The notes below the pieces were generated by a model, which was not told where the DNA came from, searched no databases, and saw nothing but the letters and a program-made list of their open reading frames with translations. A program made the translations under genes and the position numbers. Source: Hyphomicrobiales bacterium (GTDB lineage Bacteria > Pseudomonadota > Alphaproteobacteria > Rhizobiales > Rhizobiaceae). From it: a stretch of 64,000 nt of DNA. Location: contig UBZT01000004.1 in NCBI GenBank assembly GCA_900470155.1, positions 62,001 through 126,000 of the forward strand, written 5' to 3'. Position 1 is the first letter of the stretch, and each line of letters starts with the position of its first letter. Below are positions 26,368 to 62,089 of this stretch, one piece after another.

Positions 26368-26545
26368 CGCGCGATAAAATCTTTACCAATTCGCTTACTC
26401 CCCTGTTTACCATAGATTTAACCGGGCTTAGCAGTCCCTAATATGTTAAGCTGTTGGCAATATTTGACGGTCAGTTTGGTCCTCACACGAAGGGTCTGGT
26501 AGACGAAAAATTCGCTACCGAATGGCATGATGCCGAACTGTCGTA

Positions 26546-26598
26546 GCCGGTAATTTCCAGTCCGGTATGTCCCCATTAGTATCTTGTTTTAAGGGACA
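26546..26598 (+). promoter_or_regulatory. Structured flaA leader
   Basis: The hairpin GCCGG (26546-26550)/CCGGT (26562-26566) is followed two bases later by TGTCCC (26568-26573). TGTCCC pairs perfectly with GGGACA (26593-26598), which overlaps the ribosome-binding site AAGGGA. The rest of the 237-base fliP-flaA gap is AT-rich and probably holds the promoter; CCTCACACGAAG at 26500-26511 is only a loose relative of the class II element. Confidence 0.55.
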
Positions 26599-26604
26599 AA
26601 TAAC

Positions 26605-27510
26605 ATGGCCAGCATTCTGACCAACACCAACGCTATGTCTGCACTTTCGACGCTGCGTTCGATCTCCGCCAACATGGAGTCCACCCAGAACGCGATCTCC
26701 ACAGGCAAGAGCGTTGCATCTGCTTCGGACAACGCTGCGTACTGGTCGATCTCCACGACGATGAAGTCCGACAACATGGCTCTCGGCGCCGTCTCTGACG
26801 CGCTCGGCCTCGGTGCCGCCAAGGTTGATACTGCCTATGCCGGTATGGACGCCGCCATCGACGTCGTGACGGAAATCAAGGCAAAGCTCGTCGCCGCCAA
26901 GGAACAGGGTGTCGACAAGGAAAAGATCCAGGAAGAAATCTCGCAGCTCCAGGATCAGCTGACCTCGATCGCTGAATCCGCTTCGTTCAACGGCCAGAAT
27001 TGGCTGGCGAATGAAGGTGGCGACGTGACTGTCATCACCGGCTTTGTCCGCGCTGCCGACAACACGGTCACGGTCAAGTCGAGCACGATCACGCTGGACG
27101 ACACCAACATGCTGTTCAGCGCTGACGCCGCCGGCGTTATCGACGAAGCAACCGGCATCCTGGGTGCCAACGGCACTGCCTCGTCGTCGAGCATTGTCGG
27201 CTTCGAAATCGACAACGATACCGACTCTGCAACGCTCGACAACCTGCTCACCGACGTTGAAACCGCTCTGACAAGCATGGTCAGCGCCGGCGCAACGCTC
27301 GGCTCGCTGTCCAGCCGCATCGATCTGCAGTCTGAATTTGCTGACAAGCTGTCCGACGCAATCGAAACCGGCATCGGCCGTCTCGTCGACGCCGACATGA
27401 ACGAAGAATCGACCCGCCTCAAGGCCCTGCAGACCCAGCAGCAGCTGGCGATCCAGGCTCTGTCGATCGCCAACAGCGACTCGCAGAACATCCTGTCGCT
27501 CTTCCGTTAA
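26605..27510 (+). CDS. flaA: Flagellin FlaA
   Basis: 301 residues of a short flagellin: conserved N-terminal helices (MASILTNTNAMSALSTLRS, SASDNAAYWSISTTMKSDN), a reduced variable centre (about 145-205) and the C-terminal coiled coil (DADMNEESTRLKALQTQQQL). It is exported and forms the filament. It is first of four tandem flagellins. In S. meliloti FlaA is the principal subunit joined by any of the others. It has its own promoter region, structured leader and 3' hairpin. Confidence 0.95.
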   Translation: MASILTNTNAMSALSTLRSISANMESTQNAISTGKSVASASDNAAYWSISTTMKSDNMALGAVSDALGLGAAKVDTAYAGMDAAIDVVTEIKAKLVAAKEQGVDKEKIQEEISQLQDQLTSIAESASFNGQNWLANEGGDVTVITGFVRAADNTVTVKSSTITLDDTNMLFSADAAGVIDEATGILGANGTASSSSIVGFEIDNDTDSATLDNLLTDVETALTSMVSAGATLGSLSSRIDLQSEFADKLSDAIETGIGRLVDADMNEESTRLKALQTQQQLAIQALSIANSDSQNILSLFR

Positions 27511-27521
27511 TCGTAAGAACG

Positions 27522-27676
27522 AGCCGGCCCGTAAGGGCCGGCTAGACTATCCCGACGCCGATATGCCTTGGTGGCTGACCAGAGGCGCGCGAAGGGAAAG
27601 CTTCAACATCCGGAGGCTGAACCGGGTAAGTGGCTGCGAAGGTCGCGTCTGGAAACAGACGCGGCCTTTTCGTTTT
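27522..27676 (+). terminator. 3' hairpin of flaA and downstream terminator
   Basis: AGCCGGCCC-GTAA-GGGCCGGCT (27522-27543) is a strong hairpin 11 bases after flaA but has no T tract. About 100 bases on, GGTCGCGTCTG-GAAA-CAGACGCGGCC (27641-27665) is followed by TTTTCGTTTT, a good terminator. The ~95 bases between have no gene. Confidence 0.75.
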
Positions 27677-27908
27677 ATTAAGCATTTTTTGTTACGCGCG
27701 CGTGCACGCGAAGATTGCATTTTTTTTTCGCTAACCATTGAGCTGGCGGATCCCCTTAGGCCTTCGTTAACCAACATGGGTTTATCTGAACCCATCGAAG
27801 GGGCGAGCTAACCAATTAAATTCAGCCGGTTAGCAGGCATGACGCTGTGCGCACCTACCGGTGATACCGGAATGCCCTTCCTATTCAGCCATTAAGGGGC
27901 ACACACCT
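27677..27908 (+). promoter_or_regulatory. flaB promoter region and structured leader
   Basis: No gene is seen. Inverted repeats ATGGGTT (27776-27782)/AACCCAT (27789-27795) and GCTAACC (27807-27813)/GGTTAGC (27828-27834) lie in an AT-rich stretch. The leader has CCGG (27858-27861)/CCGG (27867-27870), then TGCCCTT (27873-27879), which can pair with AGGGGCA (27895-27901) over the ribosome-binding site (6 Watson-Crick pairs and one wobble). Confidence 0.5.
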
Positions 27909-28823
27909 ATGACGAGCATTTTGACGAACGTCGCCGCAATGTCGGCACTCAGCACCCTGCGCAGCATCAGCAGCGGCATGGAAGAAACCCAGTCGCGCGT
28001 TTCCTCCGGCGAACGCGTTGGTGAAGCGTCTGACAACGCAGCTTACTGGTCGATCGCAACGACCATGAAATCCGACAACATGGCCCTCTCGGCTGTCTCC
28101 GACGCCCTCGGCCTCGGCGCTTCCAAGGTCGATACTGCCTATGCCGGTATGGACGCCGCCATCGACGTCGTGAAGGAAATCAAGGCCAAGCTGGTAACGG
28201 CGACCGAAGAAGGCGTCGACAAGGCCAAGGTTCAGGAAGAAATTTCGCAGCTGCAGGAACAGCTGATGTCGATCGCAGAATCCGCTGCATTCAGCGGCGA
28301 GAACTGGATTGCCGGCGACGCTGCCGACGTGACCGTCGTTTCTGGCTTCGTACGTGATGCCAACAATGCGGTTTCTGTGAAGACCACCACCTACACGCTC
28401 GACGCTGCAGCTGACGGCACACTGCTGTTCGGTGGCGACGGCGCAGGCGGCATCGACGACACGACCGGTGTCCTCGGCACCGCAGGCGGCGCGACGATCG
28501 GCGTATCCGTATACGAACTCGACATCAGCACATTCGACGGCACGGAAATGGCCGAAGCTCTGACGCTTGTTGATGAAGCCCTGGCTTCCATGACGAGCGC
28601 TGCTGCGGAACTTGGTTCGATCTCCACCCGCATCGAACTGCAGGAAGATTTTGTCGGTTCTCTCTCCGACTCGCTCGATAGCGGTATCGGCCGTCTGGTT
28701 GACGCAGACATGAATGAAGAATCGACCCGCCTGAAGGCGCTTCAGACGCAGCAGCAGCTGGCTATCCAGTCGCTCTCGATCGCCAACTCTTCTTCGGAAG
28801 TCATCCTCTCGCTCTTCCGTTAA
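27909..28823 (+). CDS. flaB: Flagellin FlaB
   Basis: 304 residues from ATG 27909 (MTSILTNVAAM), 9 bases after AAGGGG; a longer frame upstream runs through the leader and is rejected. It has the same N- and C-terminal flagellin helices as FlaA with a different centre (about 145-215). It is the second of the tandem flagellins and is followed by a strong terminator. Confidence 0.94.
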   Translation: MTSILTNVAAMSALSTLRSISSGMEETQSRVSSGERVGEASDNAAYWSIATTMKSDNMALSAVSDALGLGASKVDTAYAGMDAAIDVVKEIKAKLVTATEEGVDKAKVQEEISQLQEQLMSIAESAAFSGENWIAGDAADVTVVSGFVRDANNAVSVKTTTYTLDAAADGTLLFGGDGAGGIDDTTGVLGTAGGATIGVSVYELDISTFDGTEMAEALTLVDEALASMTSAAAELGSISTRIELQEDFVGSLSDSLDSGIGRLVDADMNEESTRLKALQTQQQLAIQSLSIANSSSEVILSLFR

Positions 28824-28861
28824 GCCTAGGCTTTCGGTCAACAGCAAGATCGGAATTTTGG

Positions 28862-28890
28862 AAAGCCGCCCTCCGGGGCGGCTTTTTTTT
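28862..28890 (+). terminator. Terminator after flaB
   Basis: AAAGCCGCCC-TCCG-GGGCGGCTTT (a 10-bp stem) followed by a run of T to 28890. Confidence 0.92.
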
Positions 28891-28906
28891 ACATCGTCAA
28901 ATTGCG

Positions 28907-28984
28907 TTAACCATGCATTAACCATGTCCGGTTTACATGAAGGTCAAGTAACGATGGATTAACCAAAACGAAGAAGTGGTTAAT
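28907..28984 (+). promoter_or_regulatory. CtrA-like box and inverted repeat upstream of third flagellin
   Basis: TTAA (28907-28910), 7 bases, TTAA (28918-28921) within TTAACCATGCATTAACC matches the CtrA consensus of alphaproteobacteria. Downstream, ATTAACCA (28958-28965) and TGGTTAAT (28977-28984) form an 8-base inverted repeat. Confidence 0.5.
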
Positions 28985-29005
28985 TGCATTAGGCGACGCC
29001 ATCGT

Positions 29006-29053
29006 TCCCGGACGGACCGGGATGTCCCAGAAACTAGCCATTTTTAGGGGACG
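29006..29053 (+). promoter_or_regulatory. Structured leader of third flagellin
   Basis: TCCCGG (29006-29011), loop ACGGA, CCGGGA (29017-29022), directly followed by TGTCCC (29023-29028), which can pair with GGGACG (29048-29053) overlapping the AGGGGA ribosome-binding site. Confidence 0.55.
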
Positions 29054-29058
29054 CGCAA

Positions 29059-29994
29059 GTGACCAGCATTTTGACAAACAATGCAGCTATGACTGCACTC
29101 CAGACCCTTCGCACTATTGATTCCAGCATGGAAGACACCCAGGCGCGTGTATCGTCAGGTCTCCGTGTCGGCACGGCGTCCGACAACGCCGCCTACTGGT
29201 CGATCGCCACCACCATGCGATCTGACAATATGGCACTCTCGGCTGTGCAGGATGCACTCGGCCTTGGCGGCGCCAAGGTTGATACGTCCTACGCCGCGAT
29301 GGAAAGCGCCATCGAAGTCGTCAAGGAAATTAAGGCCAAGGTCGTGGCGGCAACCGAAGAGGGTGTCGACAAGTCCAAGATCCAGGAAGAAATCGACCAG
29401 CTCAAGGAGCAGCTCCGTTCGATCTCCGAATCGGCAAGCTTCAGTGGCGAAAACTGGATCGCCGGCGATGCCGCCACCAAGACGGTCGTGTCCGGATTTG
29501 TCCGCGATTCCAGCGGCGCCGTGACGGTCAAGACGACAGAATACGTGCTCAGCGACGCCGCTGATGGCAACCTTTTGTTCGGCGGCGACGGTGCCGGCAA
29601 TATCGAATACACAACGGGTATCCTTGGAACCGTCTCGGCATTTACCGGTGTTGGCGATGTGTCCGTTGATACGCTCGATCTCAATGCCTTCGATCCGGCT
29701 GACATGGCCGCGAACATGCAGGAATCGCTGGATCTCATCGAAAGTGCCTTGCAGAGCATGACGAGCGCGGCCGCTGAACTCGGCTCGATCTCCATGCGCA
29801 TCGAACTCCAGGAAGATTTCGTGAGCACGCTCACCGACTCGATCGACTCCGGTATCGGTCGTCTCGTTGACGCAGACATGAACGAGGAATCAACCCGCCT
29901 GAAGGCCCTGCAGACCCAGCAGCAGCTCGCCATCCAGTCGCTGTCGATTGCCAACACCGCTTCCGAAAGCATCCTGACTCTCTTCCGTCAGTAA
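29059..29994 (+). CDS. flaC: Flagellin, third tandem copy
   Basis: 311 residues from GTG 29059, 7 bases after AGGGGA; the GTG start is supported by the alignment VTSILTNNAAM to the other copies. The N- and C-terminal flagellin domains are conserved and the centre differs. The third copy is called flaC in R. leguminosarum/Agrobacterium-type loci but flaD in S. meliloti, so the symbol is by order only. The weak start may reduce its dose. Confidence 0.92.
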   Translation: MTSILTNNAAMTALQTLRTIDSSMEDTQARVSSGLRVGTASDNAAYWSIATTMRSDNMALSAVQDALGLGGAKVDTSYAAMESAIEVVKEIKAKVVAATEEGVDKSKIQEEIDQLKEQLRSISESASFSGENWIAGDAATKTVVSGFVRDSSGAVTVKTTEYVLSDAADGNLLFGGDGAGNIEYTTGILGTVSAFTGVGDVSVDTLDLNAFDPADMAANMQESLDLIESALQSMTSAAAELGSISMRIELQEDFVSTLTDSIDSGIGRLVDADMNEESTRLKALQTQQQLAIQSLSIANTASESILTLFRQ

Positions 29995-30053
29995 GGGCGC
30001 CTTGGCTAGGGGCGACTTCGTCCCGAGCTGACAAGTCGGATGTATTCGGTATG

Positions 30054-30082
30054 AACCGCACCCAGAAATGGGTGCGGTTTTT
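30054..30082 (+). terminator. Terminator after third flagellin
   Basis: AACCGCACCC (30054-30063), 6-base loop, GGGTGCGGTT (30070-30079), followed by T residues. Confidence 0.9.
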
Positions 30083-30178
30083 TCGTGCCTTGCGTGAAGC
30101 TGGCCGATTTATGCGGTTTTCCCTCCAAGCAGATTTCCGACCTTGCCAAATGGCGTATGCGTTTGTTAACTGGCGCCG

Positions 30179-30285
30179 TTAACGATTTGTTAATGGTTGC
30201 GGGGACCGGCGGAATGCTGGTCTGCATGATGCCCCTCCGTTGCCACCGGTATGCTTCCGGCCTTTTGGATTGACGATTAAGGGCA
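30179..30285 (+). promoter_or_regulatory. CtrA-like box and leader of fourth flagellin
   Basis: TTAA (30179-30182), 7 bases, TTAA (30190-30193) is a CtrA-like box. The leader keeps the CCGG (30246-30249)/CCGG (30257-30260) hairpin. Pairing to the ribosome-binding site AAGGGCA is weaker: CCTT (30261-30264) with AAGG, or TGCCC (30230-30234) with GGGCA (30281-30285) from the other side of the hairpin. Confidence 0.45.
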
Positions 30286-30290
30286 CCTCA

Positions 30291-31259
30291 ATGACCAGCA
30301 TCATGACCAACGCTGCCGCAATGGCGGCCCTGCAGACTCTGCGCTCGATCGATACCAATCTGGAAACGACGCAAAGCCGCGTTTCCTCGGGCTATCGGGT
30401 CGAGACAGCTTCGGACAATGCCGGCTATTGGTCGATTGCCACCACCATGCGCTCCGACAATGCAGCATTGTCGACGGTCTCGGACGCGCTGGGTCTGGGT
30501 GCCGCCACGGTGGATACCGCTTACACGGCGCTCGACAACGTCATCGAAGTCATGTCGTCGATCAAGGCCAAGCTGGTCGCCGCAAGCGAGCCGGGCGTCG
30601 ACAAGGAAAAGATCAACGAAGAAATGAAACAGCTGAAGAACCAGCTGGTTTCGGCGGCGCAGTCGGCATCATTCTCCGGTGAGAACTGGCTCTACAATAC
30701 GAATGTCAACGAACTGGGCACCAAACAGGTTGTCTCCTCCTTTGTGCGCGGCGCCGACGGCAGCGTTCAGGTGACGACGCTGGACTTCGACACCGCGGAT
30801 TCCGTCCTGATCGATACGGAAGACGCAGGCCGCGGCTTCCTGACCAAGGCGATTGACGCCGATACCCTCGTTCCCGACCCGACGGGTACGGCGCGAGAAT
30901 ATTATCTTCTGGACGTCGGTTCCGTCGTGCCGCCGACCGGTGATCCGATCGAGATCGATAACGATACCGACACGGAAACGTTGGATGACATGATCAGCGT
31001 CGTCGACGATCTGATCAGCCAGTTGACCGACGCTGCCGCAACGCTGGGTGCGATCACCAGCCGCATCGAGATGCAGGACAATTTCGTTTCCAACCTGATG
31101 GACGTGATCGACAAGGGTGTCGGCCGTCTGGTTGATGCCGACATGAACGAGGAATCGACCCGTCTGAAAGCCCTGCAGACCCAGCAGCAGCTTGGCATCC
31201 AGGCGCTTTCAATCGCCAACAGCAGCGCAGAAAAGCTGCTCACCCTGTTCCGCGAGTAA
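30291..31259 (+). CDS. flaD: Flagellin, fourth tandem copy
   Basis: 322 residues from ATG 30291 (MTSIMTNAAAM). It is the longest and most divergent of the four: the centre (about 145-235) has insertions, and the end is TLFRE. The conserved N- and C-terminal helices are kept. The symbol is by order (flaC in S. meliloti). A hairpin GGACCGCGC/GCGCGGTCC at 31314-31341 without T tract may end its transcript. Confidence 0.92.
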   Translation: MTSIMTNAAAMAALQTLRSIDTNLETTQSRVSSGYRVETASDNAGYWSIATTMRSDNAALSTVSDALGLGAATVDTAYTALDNVIEVMSSIKAKLVAASEPGVDKEKINEEMKQLKNQLVSAAQSASFSGENWLYNTNVNELGTKQVVSSFVRGADGSVQVTTLDFDTADSVLIDTEDAGRGFLTKAIDADTLVPDPTGTAREYYLLDVGSVVPPTGDPIEIDNDTDTETLDDMISVVDDLISQLTDAAATLGAITSRIEMQDNFVSNLMDVIDKGVGRLVDADMNEESTRLKALQTQQQLGIQALSIANSSAEKLLTLFRE

Positions 31260-36886: not shown

Positions 36887-36901
36887 TTAATCAATTATTA
36901 A
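36887..36901 (+). promoter_or_regulatory. CtrA-like box upstream of rem
   Basis: TTAATCAATTATTAA: TTAA, 7 bases, TTAA, 92 bases before the rem start. The 280-base gap is strongly AT-rich from 36810 on and has no gene; CTTGTGCG and CTTGCGTTAAC (36794-36815) contain the class II core in reverse orientation. Confidence 0.45.
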
Positions 36902-36992: not shown

Positions 36993-37664
36993 ATGATCGT
37001 CGTGGTTGATGAGCGCGAGCTCGTGAAAGACGGGTACACTTCTCTATTTGGACGGGAAGGTATTCCATCCACCGGATTTGATCCGGCGGAATTCGGGGAA
37101 TGGGTCACTACGGCGGCTGATTCCGACATTGCGGCAGTTGAGGCTTTTCTGCTCGGTCAGGGCGATAGCACCTTGGAACTGCCGCGGGCTATCCGGGATA
37201 GAACCCAGGCGCCGGTGATCGCAGTCAGCGATCAGCCATCCCTGGAGGCGACCTTGGCCCTGTTTGATTGCGGCGTCGACGACGTCGTGCGCAAGCCGGT
37301 CCATCCTCGCGAGATCCTGGCACGGGCGGCGGCCATTCGCCGGCGTCTGAAGGCAATTTCCAACTTTACCGAAATCGGTCCGATCCGGGTCTTCTCCGAT
37401 GGACGCGATCCGGAAATTTCCGGCGATGTATTTCCTCTGCCGCGGCGCGAACGTCGTATCCTGGAATACTTGGTCGCAAATCGCGGCCGACGCGTTTCGA
37501 AGACCCAGATCTTCAATGCCATCTACGGCATCTTCGACGAGGAAGTCGAAGAGAACGTCGTCGAAAGCCACATCTCCAAGCTTCGCAAGAAGCTTCGCAA
37601 GAAGCTCGATTTCGACCCGGTCGATTCCAAGCGCTTCCTTGGCTACTGCATCGACTGGAGCTGA
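36993..37664 (+). CDS. rem: OmpR-type flagellar regulator Rem
   Basis: 223 residues. A receiver-like domain (about 1-110) lacks the usual phosphoacceptor: the region that should read xDxxMP is [12 protein letters not shown]-terminal winged helix (about 130-223, [22 protein letters not shown] and [10 protein letters not shown]) binds DNA. In S. meliloti Rem is activated by VisN/VisR and turns on the flagellar class II genes independently of phosphorylation. GGAGG lies 9 bases before the start. Confidence 0.93.
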
Positions 37665-41594: not shown

Positions 41595-41942
41595 ATGTAC
41601 CAGTTTTCATACGCCGAAATCATGGAAGATGGGGTGGCCGACGCGAAAGATCGCGAGCGTCAGGCCCTCGATCGGACGATTGATTTGCTGCGGGCGGCTT
41701 CACTGAAGGCCAGCTATTCGCGCGAGGCTATTGAAGCGCTTTACTACACACGACGGGTCTGGGTCCGCTTCATTGAAGATCTCCAGCACCCTGAAAATCA
41801 GCTTGCTGTCGAAATTCGCGCCAATCTGATTTCCATCGCTATTTGGATTTTGAAGGAATGCGACCGGATCCGGAAGCGCCAGTCAGACAATTTCCAGGGC
41901 ATCATAGACGTGACAACCATCATCAGGGATGGACTTAAATGA
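41595..41942 (+). CDS. flaF: Flagellin biosynthesis regulator FlaF
   Basis: 115 residues, all-helical, matching the alphaproteobacterial FlaF family ([20 protein letters not shown], then [12 protein letters not shown] and [11 protein letters not shown]). FlaF is needed for flagellin synthesis or export and acts opposite to FlbT in Caulobacter. A near ATG at 41591 is in another frame. It overlaps flbT by four bases. Confidence 0.92.
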
Positions 41943-42388
41943 AGAGCACTTTGCGCATTTCGCTCAAGTCGGGCGAACGGATCTTTATCAATGGAGCGGT
42001 TCTTCGCGTCGACCGCAAGGTTGCTCTGGAGTTCCTCAACGACGTGACCTTCCTCCTGGAAAATCACGTCCTGCAGCCCGACCAGGCCACAACGCCCCTG
42101 CGGCAGCTCTATTTCATCGCGCAGATGATGTTGATCAATCCGGAAGGCCGCGAACAGTCGATGGCGATGTTCCGCAAGTCGATCATCATGCTGCTGAACT
42201 GCTTCCAGAACGAAGAAATTCTGGCCGAACTCAAGCGCGTCGATGCGATGGTCTCGTCCGGACGAGCCTTCGATGCACTGAAGGCGATCCGCTCGCTTTA
42301 TGCGGTCGAGGACCGGATCTTGACCAGCGATGAAATGAGCCCGGCCACGATCGAGCAGATTCGCAAGGAGATTGCGCCATGGCGGTAG
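41939..42388 (+). CDS. flbT: Flagellin translation regulator FlbT
   Basis: 149 residues of the FlbT family ([40 protein letters not shown]). In Caulobacter FlbT binds the flagellin mRNA leader and blocks translation until the hook is finished. The structured leaders of the four flagellins in this window are natural candidate targets. It overlaps flaF by 4 and flgD by 10 bases. Confidence 0.93.
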
Positions 42389-61303: not shown

Positions 61304-62089
61304 TTACATCGCCGGCATCACGGTGATCGCGCGCACCGGCATATCGACCCCGGCAAGCATACCGGCCTTGGTGGCGGCGCCCGTTTCCAGATTGACCGTG
61401 TAGAGGCTGTTGTCGGCGACCAGCCAGGCGGTGTTCTTGCCTTCGCCGGTTGCCTGAATGTCGAAGGCATAGGTCTTCGGCATGCCTTCGATGCCCAGCT
61501 TGCCGATCGCCTTCAGCGTGCCGTCATTCGGCTTGGTCTGCTGGATCAGCGCGCCGATCGTCGCATCGATATTGTACATCGCCGTCTTTTCAGGCTTGCC
61601 CATCGAATTGGTATAGGCAGCCGCCACCGTGTTCGGGGCTTCGCCCTTGTGCATGTCGCCCTCTTCAAAGGCGAGATTACCATCGACGGTGACCGCACCG
61701 GTGTCCGGATGAACCCGATAGTTCGTGGTGCCGGTCATGTAGCGCAGGCGGTCGGCGGCGGGGTTAAAATTGACCACAACCGGCGCATCGCCGATTGTTA
61801 GCGGCTTGTCCATCTTGGCAACTTCAGTGGCCGCGCCGGTTGCAGGATCGATCGTCACGATGACGCTGTCGGCCGTCACGCCGACAATGGTCTTGGTGCC
61901 TGGGCGAAAGTCGAGGCCGACCAGTTTCGTCACACCCGTCACGTCCATCGTCTTGGTCGCATCCGGCTTGTCGGTGTCGAACATCACGAGTGTCTTGTCG
62001 CCGGCAAGGCCGAGCGCAGGGGCGGCATGCGCCGAAAATGCGGTCAGTGCGGTTGCGGCGGTCAGGGTGAGGATGCTCAAGGTCTTCAT
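61304..62089 (-). CDS. Secreted DUF4394 protein
   Basis: 261 residues from ATG 62089 (MKTLSIL); an upstream extension into the promoter is rejected. Signal peptide about 1-22 (SAHAAP). The mature part is a repeated beta-rich pattern (GLAGDKTLVMFDTD, LVGLDFRPGTKTIVGVT, SLYTVNLETGAATKAG) as in DUF4394, probably a beta-propeller-like fold. Function unknown. It is divergent from a sigma/anti-sigma pair, and matching promoters suggest it is a target of that sigma factor. Confidence 0.85.
   Translation of the reverse strand: MKTLSILTLTAATALTAFSAHAAPALGLAGDKTLVMFDTDKPDATKTMDVTGVTKLVGLDFRPGTKTIVGVTADSVIVTIDPATGAATEVAKMDKPLTIGDAPVVVNFNPAADRLRYMTGTTNYRVHPDTGAVTVDGNLAFEEGDMHKGEAPNTVAAAYTNSMGKPEKTAMYNIDATIGALIQQTKPNDGTLKAIGKLGIEGMPKTYAFDIQATGEGKNTAWLVADNSLYTVNLETGAATKAGMLAGVDMPVRAITVMPAM

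Follow-up and report, generated by a model that had tools for sequence, protein, structure and literature searches.

Does the leader of a flagellin mRNA carry a structure that controls its own translation? We addressed this question in a 64,000-nucleotide stretch of Hyphomicrobiales (Rhizobiaceae) DNA, positions 62,001 to 126,000 of contig UBZT01000004.1 (hereafter the window, numbered from its first letter). It holds four tandem flagellin genes, flaA, flaB, flaC and flaD, which start at 26605, 27909, 29059 and 30291 according to the open reading frame (ORF) list and the sequence. We propose that a cis-acting flagellin leader masks the ribosome-binding site, is closed by default and is opened by a trans-acting factor, most likely the FlbT subfamily that accompanies such leaders. 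We consider this reading probable.

Two helices in front of the flagellin start codons

The flaA, flaB and flaC leaders each carry a hairpin, P1 (CCGG-loop-CCGG), followed after two bases by a TGYCCC arm that pairs with the ribosome-binding site to form a second helix, P2. A first-pass annotation of the window had described a CCGG hairpin, TGYCCC and a complementary ribosome-binding site; this arrangement holds for flaA, flaB and flaC, with a gap of two bases, but not for the fourth copy. Extracting leaders from 73 named loci of flagellin relatives, the window and the own-genome loci, we obtained 261 leaders, 226 of them distinct. The pattern CCGG-loop-CCGG-TGYCC is present in 185 of the 226, and in 183 of these 185 at least six of eight positions pair with a site whose 3′ end is 2-8 nt upstream of the start codon. 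The 41 leaders outside the strict pattern include many last-copy, flaD-type leaders.

Both helices appear in the single-sequence folds of flaA, flaB and flaC. We folded a nonredundant set of 67 leaders, selected for P1 plus TGYCCC; in 64 of them, the unconstrained minimum-energy fold pairs four or more of the six arm bases with bases among the 20 nt immediately preceding the start. In loci L159 and L166, one TGTCC arm is followed by two tandem ribosome-site arms (AAGGACA and AAGGGACA), so that alternative pairing might be possible.

Among 121 distinct Rhizobiaceae leaders, P2 varies chiefly by wobble, the third pair being U-G in 70, U-A in 41, C-G in 7 and another combination in 3. Of the 41 leaders with U-A at this position, 30 have no extension pair and 11 have one; of the 70 with U.G, 15 have one and 55 have two. 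The mean P2 hairpin energy is -7.35 kcal/mol for the 41 leaders with A as the 3′ base versus -8.29 kcal/mol for the 77 with G, C-G included. The stability of P2 seems to be balanced, the weaker U.G pair being offset by extra extension pairs; paralog ancestry is an alternative cause.

A static attenuator that sets the level of flagellin translation, or shields the 5′ end of the mRNA, without a regulator would suit both the difference of about 1 kcal/mol in mean P2 stability between arm types and the near-invariant P1 adjoining the presumed 5′ end. However, flagellin translation is reported to depend on FlbT in relatives (PMC7591256, PMC9812332, PMC8429497), and we regard a leader without a regulator as unlikely. 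The hairpin over the ribosome-binding site, at about -7 to -8 kcal/mol, could also respond to another sensor, such as a small RNA, temperature or a ligand. Against this stands the Rfam search, in which the window leaders match none of the families, among them the riboswitches and thermometers, and such a sensor strikes us as very unlikely.

Distribution and covariation across the order

We built a covariance model, R1 (56 positions, 12 pairs), from 30 training leaders, which include flaB and flaC of the window (not flaA) and two leaders with divergent helices. The structure was drawn up manually and tested separately, because none emerged when MAFFT and RNAalifold were applied to 180 loosely aligned leaders. 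R1 finds flaA, flaB and flaC in the window at E values of 1.9e-7 to 4.6e-7. In the 5.48-Mb genome to which the window belongs, these three are the only matches at E<=0.01 (1.6e-5 to 3.9e-5); the next stands at 0.27, and none of the five sub-threshold matches has a flagellin nearby. A search of 71 loci (853 kb) at E<=0.1 gives 217 matches to R1, every one on the strand of the locus-defining flagellin, the plus strand. In a scripted check of the best 150 of these 217, a flagellin start follows the end of the match by 4-10 positions in 148; the other two, L075 and L076, lie near contig ends.

Of 199 genomes of the order that we searched, 41 hold matches at E<=0.01, 65 in all. Flagellin starts immediately follow 56 of the 65, as judged by flagellin profile for the three own-genome matches and 29 others, by coordinates for 21, and by reading for three (L343, L344 and L346). 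Among the remainder, one precedes a flagellin-like ORF (L344), one a chemoreceptor gene (L354), and six look like chance (L347-L351 and L353; E 0.003-0.008); the 65th match (G043, E 0.009) is left unassigned in this tally, and of eleven extracted stretches the reading covered all except L345. The L344 ORF (genome G087, 796-1617 on the minus strand, 274 aa) lies in a flagellin cluster downstream of a P1+P2 leader; it has no Pfam match and carries a flagellin-like stretch, AAYWSI, and is perhaps a degenerate or regulatory flagellin. At L354 (G091:C1), a flagellin-type leader at 370-424 that has P1 and GCATGATGC stands before a methyl-accepting chemotaxis gene (MCPsignal 2.4e-51), and the element may for this reason control more than flagellin. 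In 192 genomes from the class (the 191 others include two of the same order), R1 at E<=0.001 matched the own genome only, under strict filters that lose weak matches. Leaders inspected by eye, from 28 of the 29 flagellin loci that lie outside the order, all lack the motif. The own genome also has two distant flagellin-like genes without the leader, C21:460032-461738 (L082) and C16:580932-581885 (L083), the latter with GCATGATGC alone.

For covariation we used 222 leaders: two alignments, A3 (best 150 of the 217 matches) and A4 (150 of 168, antisense included), gave 300 rows, of which 32 were dropped and duplicates merged. Each column's changes were re-placed on a tree as the null for a G-test. 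The four P1 pairs give p=0.008, 0.016, 0.038 and 0.002, values that rest on 1-4 inferred changes per column, and three of the eight P2 pairs are significant (p=0.046, 0.006 and 0.012). These p-values are approximate, because the tree derives from the leaders themselves, the alignment had been adjusted to the structure and the 12 tests are uncorrected. In the order-wide data, the leaders carry a conserved, covarying helix that includes the ribosome-binding site.

Pairing within individual leaders was measured by permutation. Starting from 399 leaders, reduced to 199 at 80% identity and then to 180 (19 dropped), we used 176. When each 5′ arm is paired with the 3′ region of the leader to which it belongs, the best score has a mean of 13.30, as compared with 11.90 for permuted regions (standard deviation 0.15; 0 of 500 as high) and 6.54 for shuffled letters; the permutation ignores relatedness, and the clear helix changes are few and mostly from one family (L105, L108, L200 and kin). 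At least five contiguous pairs from the TG anchor are found in 96 of 138 order-wide leaders, versus 18.4 expected when the last 30 nt are shuffled. Within the Rhizobiaceae, the covariation score of 0.084 exceeds all 500 shuffles (mean 0.074).

Thus, the order-wide comparison, and not the four window copies, supports a selected RNA structure over the ribosome-binding site. The first-pass annotation had argued from the window copies that the pairs change together. This does not hold up, as these copies show two-sided change only at the third P2 pair (U-A to C-G), the rest being invariant or wobble, and that pair gives p=0.136 on the tree. Its call for covariation in Rhizobiaceae was borne out only in the wider set, where P1 and three of eight P2 pairs reach p<=0.05; within the family the signal is weak. 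Of its "selected RNA switch", the evidence, through the order-wide comparison, extends to the selected structure and not to two alternative states.

A part of the conserved block lies upstream of the helices. Of 140 anchored leaders, 123 have GCATGANGY at 11-14 nt upstream of P1, one has it at 3 nt and 16 lack it; the sequence upstream of the element is little conserved. Since GCATGANGC is not rare (8 in the window versus 6.9 expected; GGCATGANGCNG occurs 91 times in the own genome), its meaning comes from its position only. We take the GCATGANGC-type element as part of a promoter, and its place 11-14 nt upstream of P1 suggests that the leader lies inside the transcript. The promoter-like element and the leader are separable, because the distant flagellin gene L083 has GCATGATGC without P1 or P2.

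Could the whole block (GCATGANGC, the CCGG repeats and TGTCCC) be DNA, that is, promoter and activator sites with no RNA function? A part of it is indeed a promoter-type element, as the position of GCATGANGY is fixed and it also precedes L083 without P1/P2; CtrA motifs are also reported for S. meliloti flaA, flaC and flaD (PMC3616915). However, the arms keep pairing while loop lengths vary, and the distance from the 3′ arm to the start codon stays within 2-8 nt in 185 leaders. Replaced helices at three loci also preserve pairing and not sequence. L105 has P1 GCCT/AGGC and P2 TGTTTCG/CGAAACA, and L108 has P1 CCGA/TCGG and P2 TGTCTTTC/GAAAGACG; both fold unaided. In L343, from a 1.5-Mb genome of the same family, every P1 pair is replaced (GCTGC-TTAGA-GCAGC) and P2 is TGTCCC/GGGACG. 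We therefore hold a purely DNA function to be highly improbable.

The fourth copy, flaD, retains P1, lacks P2 at the standard position and gives no match to R1. Its arm pairing score is 5.0, and 99% of consensus 3′ regions pair equally well or better. The first-pass annotation had noted correctly that the CCGG hairpin is kept here, and had read a TGCCC block on its other side as the displaced arm. We set that pairing aside, as TGCCC (30230-30234) overlaps the promoter-like GCATGATGC (30224-30232), which stands at the set distance before P1, and is probably not transcribed. In one genus of the same family (L212, L214, L215, L216, L259 and L260), P1 is kept and TGTCAAAA or TGTAAAAA replaces the P2 arm; in some of these leaders, a local GGTA-CGAG-TACC hairpin takes the place of P2 at the ribosome site.

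FlbT as the candidate factor and features of the window

If the leader is an RNA element of this kind, transcription would start just 3′ of GCATGANGC, placing the 5′ end of the RNA a few bases upstream of P1, a fixed 5′ hairpin. A base or two past P1, UGYCCC would pair with the ribosome-binding site, so that the start region is closed by default; the comparison supports the P2 pairing, and from it we infer the effect on translation. A default-closed leader needs an opener, and a trans-acting factor that opens P2 would let flagellin be made only once the hook-basal body is ready. The FlbT subfamily accompanying the leaders, acting mainly as an activator, would be the most likely opener, as judged from co-occurrence and genetics in relatives. 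The fold probably controls the timing of flagellar filament production, because related folds, some with matching base changes, precede flagellins across the order.

FlbT and FlaF are encoded at 41595-42388 in the window, so that the same stretch holds leaders on flagellin genes and an encoded FlbT; the first-pass assignment of FlbT at 41939 was confirmed by Pfam (PF07378, 1.4e-42). In the 199 genomes of the order, FlbT is present in 39 of 41 with an R1 match and in 110 of 158 without one (Fisher test p=4e-4, which ignores phylogeny and is weak evidence). In a tree of 40 hand-chosen FlbTs, one branch (support 100/100) splits 25 of 25 from leader-bearing systems, among them a genome whose leaders are divergent and another that has only P1, from 15 of 15 others, where no leader means no R1 match at E<=0.01, divergent leaders not having been sought. 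Seven R1-positive genomes have two FlbT genes, one per subfamily, and 12-21 kb separate the leaders from the copy of the leader-associated subfamily. The split is consistent with, and not proof of, a leader-FlbT pair, because linkage within the flagellar cluster yields the same split. FlbT is therefore a candidate for the leader's factor, from co-occurrence and the published genetics.

That published work differs in sign. In Bradyrhizobium, FlbT is reported to induce translation of lateral flagellins (Mongiardini 2017, cited in PMC8429497), and in Brucella it is proposed as an activator (PMC8781033, PMC4347634). In A. fabrum, flbT was recovered in a motility screen (PMC9812332). In Caulobacter, FlbT represses, and a model of repressor and co-repressor is given (PMC7591256, PMC9812332). 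FlbT control of flagellin translation is described as unresolved, with a sign that differs between relatives (PMC4347634). A Caulobacter-like repressor with a co-repressor would agree with the last model, and the flaD-type copies, mostly without P2, could then be an early or regulatory flagellin. In view of the activator reports from Brucella and Bradyrhizobium, and of the distance between the leader-associated FlbT and the other FlbTs of the order (in the 40-protein tree, which is without the Caulobacter FlbT), we find such a repressor rather unlikely. The Rfam-absent RNA family and its dedicated FlbT subfamily might also form one module, inherited with a rhizobial or lateral-type flagellar cluster, in which the RNA closes the site and FlbT opens it. 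This is a tentative idea, somewhat doubtful at present; if true, it would account for FlbT activating in rhizobial relatives and repressing in Caulobacter.

Several observations weigh against a default-closed leader opened by FlbT. The flaA, flaB and flaC folds are not clearly stabler than dinucleotide shuffles (z -0.14 to -0.68). P1 is invariant in the 121 Rhizobiaceae leaders; among these, two-sided changes of a pair are no commoner than expected from shuffling, and shifting the partners by +2 and +3 yields scores of 0.084 and 0.086, matching the true register. Five of the eight P2 pairs, including the third, are not significant on the order-wide tree. Of 53 divergent 5′ arms, no more than 16 are matched by their own 3′ region more closely than by 95% of consensus 3′ regions, leaving 37 that are not; the number of independent helix-change events is small. 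P2 is absent from the flaD-type copies and from one genus, and is thus not needed everywhere. The presence of P1 and the 5′ arm of P2 in the mRNA is inferred from the position of the promoter-like element. Lastly, FlbT also occurs in those 110 genomes without an R1 match, and its co-occurrence with the leaders is expected from linked inheritance of the flagellar cluster.

The features of the window are collected in Table 1. The window has only three TTAA-N7-TTAA sites (CtrA-box-like; 0.05 expected), at 28907-28921, 30179-30193 and 36887-36901, which sit upstream of flaC, flaD and a response-regulator gene at 36993.

Table 1. Flagellin leaders, genes and associated features in the window.
Feature	Position	Strand	Basis
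GCATGATGC, promoter-like DNA element 5′ of flaA leader	26525..26533	+	motif position before P1
flaA leader RNA (predicted)	26538..26598	+	model R1 36.0 bits, E 1.9e-7
flaA leader arms	P1 26547-26550/26562-26565 (CCGG/CCGG); P2 26568-26573/26593-26598 (TGTCCC/GGGACA)	+	sequence
Flagellin FlaA, ATG start	26605..27510	+	Pfam Flagellin_N 2.3e-33, Flagellin_C 9.2e-21
GCATGACGC, promoter-like element 5′ of flaB leader	27837..27845	+	
flaB leader RNA (predicted)	27849..27901	+	model R1 34.4 bits; folds as P1+P2
flaB leader arms	P1 27858-27861/27867-27870 (CCGG/CCGG); P2 27873-27879/27895-27901 (5′ arm TGCCCTT; ribosome-binding site GGGGCA)	+	
flaB ribosome-binding site AAGGGGCA	27894-27901	+	sequence
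Flagellin FlaB, start at the ATG homologous to other copies	27909..28823	+	ORF and leader extraction
GCATTAGGC, variant promoter-like element 5′ of flaC leader	28986..28994	+	by eye; position relative to P1 as in others
flaC leader RNA (predicted)	28999..29053	+	model R1 35.0 bits
flaC leader arms	P1 29008-29011/29017-29020 (CCGG/CCGG); P2 29023-29028/29048-29053 (TGTCCC/GGGACG)	+	
Flagellin FlaC, GTG start	29059..29994	+	ORF
GCATGATGC, promoter-like element 5′ of flaD; overlaps TGCCC 30230-30234	30224..30232	+	
flaD leader, P1 30246-30249/30257-30260, no P2 at standard position	30246..30285	+	sequence, folding, no model match
Flagellin FlaD	30291..31259	+	ORF; Pfam Flagellin_N/C
FlaF (PF07309)	41595..41942	+	Pfam E 1.4e-32
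FlbT (PF07378), candidate trans-acting factor	41939..42388	+	Pfam E 1.4e-42; subfamily tree

Comparison with known systems

The flagellin leader, under likely translational control, appears to be structurally undescribed: no Rfam family matches it, the flg-Rhizobiales RNA differs, and no description is found among the matches listed in the open-licence literature, key subscription papers being outside that scope. A two-helix RNA with natural variants and natural losses makes the FlbT question testable. It could tell in advance which flagellins depend on FlbT and what changes in the arms should uncouple them, and R1, being compact, can serve to annotate flagellin leaders throughout this order of plant symbionts and pathogens.

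The closest RNA in kind is flg-Rhizobiales (RF01736), which, like these leaders, is a conserved RNA before flagellar genes of the same order (Weinberg 2010, PMC2864571). In comparison with its 141 positions and three stem-loops, the present leaders have about 56 positions and two helices. We rejected membership in RF01736 on the grounds of this architecture, the different gene (FlgF) and the lack of any match in the window; its best score in the own genome, elsewhere, is 18.4 bits versus a gathering score of 55 bits. In 101 genomes of the order, RF01736 gives 11 matches (one over the cut-off), each in front of an FlgF gene, whereas these leaders precede flagellins. NCBIfam names 10 of the 11 genes as FlgF, and the last is assigned through its identical start. 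One genome, G032 (L112, L089), has two FlbT genes, the flg-Rhizobiales RNA before flgF, and the present leader before two flagellins elsewhere.

Anderson and Gober (2000) reportedly dealt with the 5′ untranslated region of the Caulobacter fljK flagellin together with FlbT. As in that system, a flagellin mRNA leader is here the predicted site of translational control, with FlbT and FlaF encoded alongside. The two sides differ in that R1, under strict filters, matches none of the 191 other class genomes at E<=0.001, Caulobacter's own leader not having been compared. For LafA of Bradyrhizobium, the citing account (PMC8429497) gives no leader structure in the part that we draw on. The likeness lies in the link that it reports between FlbT and lateral-flagellin translation, and in the seven R1-positive genomes with two FlbT genes the leaders stand 12-21 kb from one of the two.

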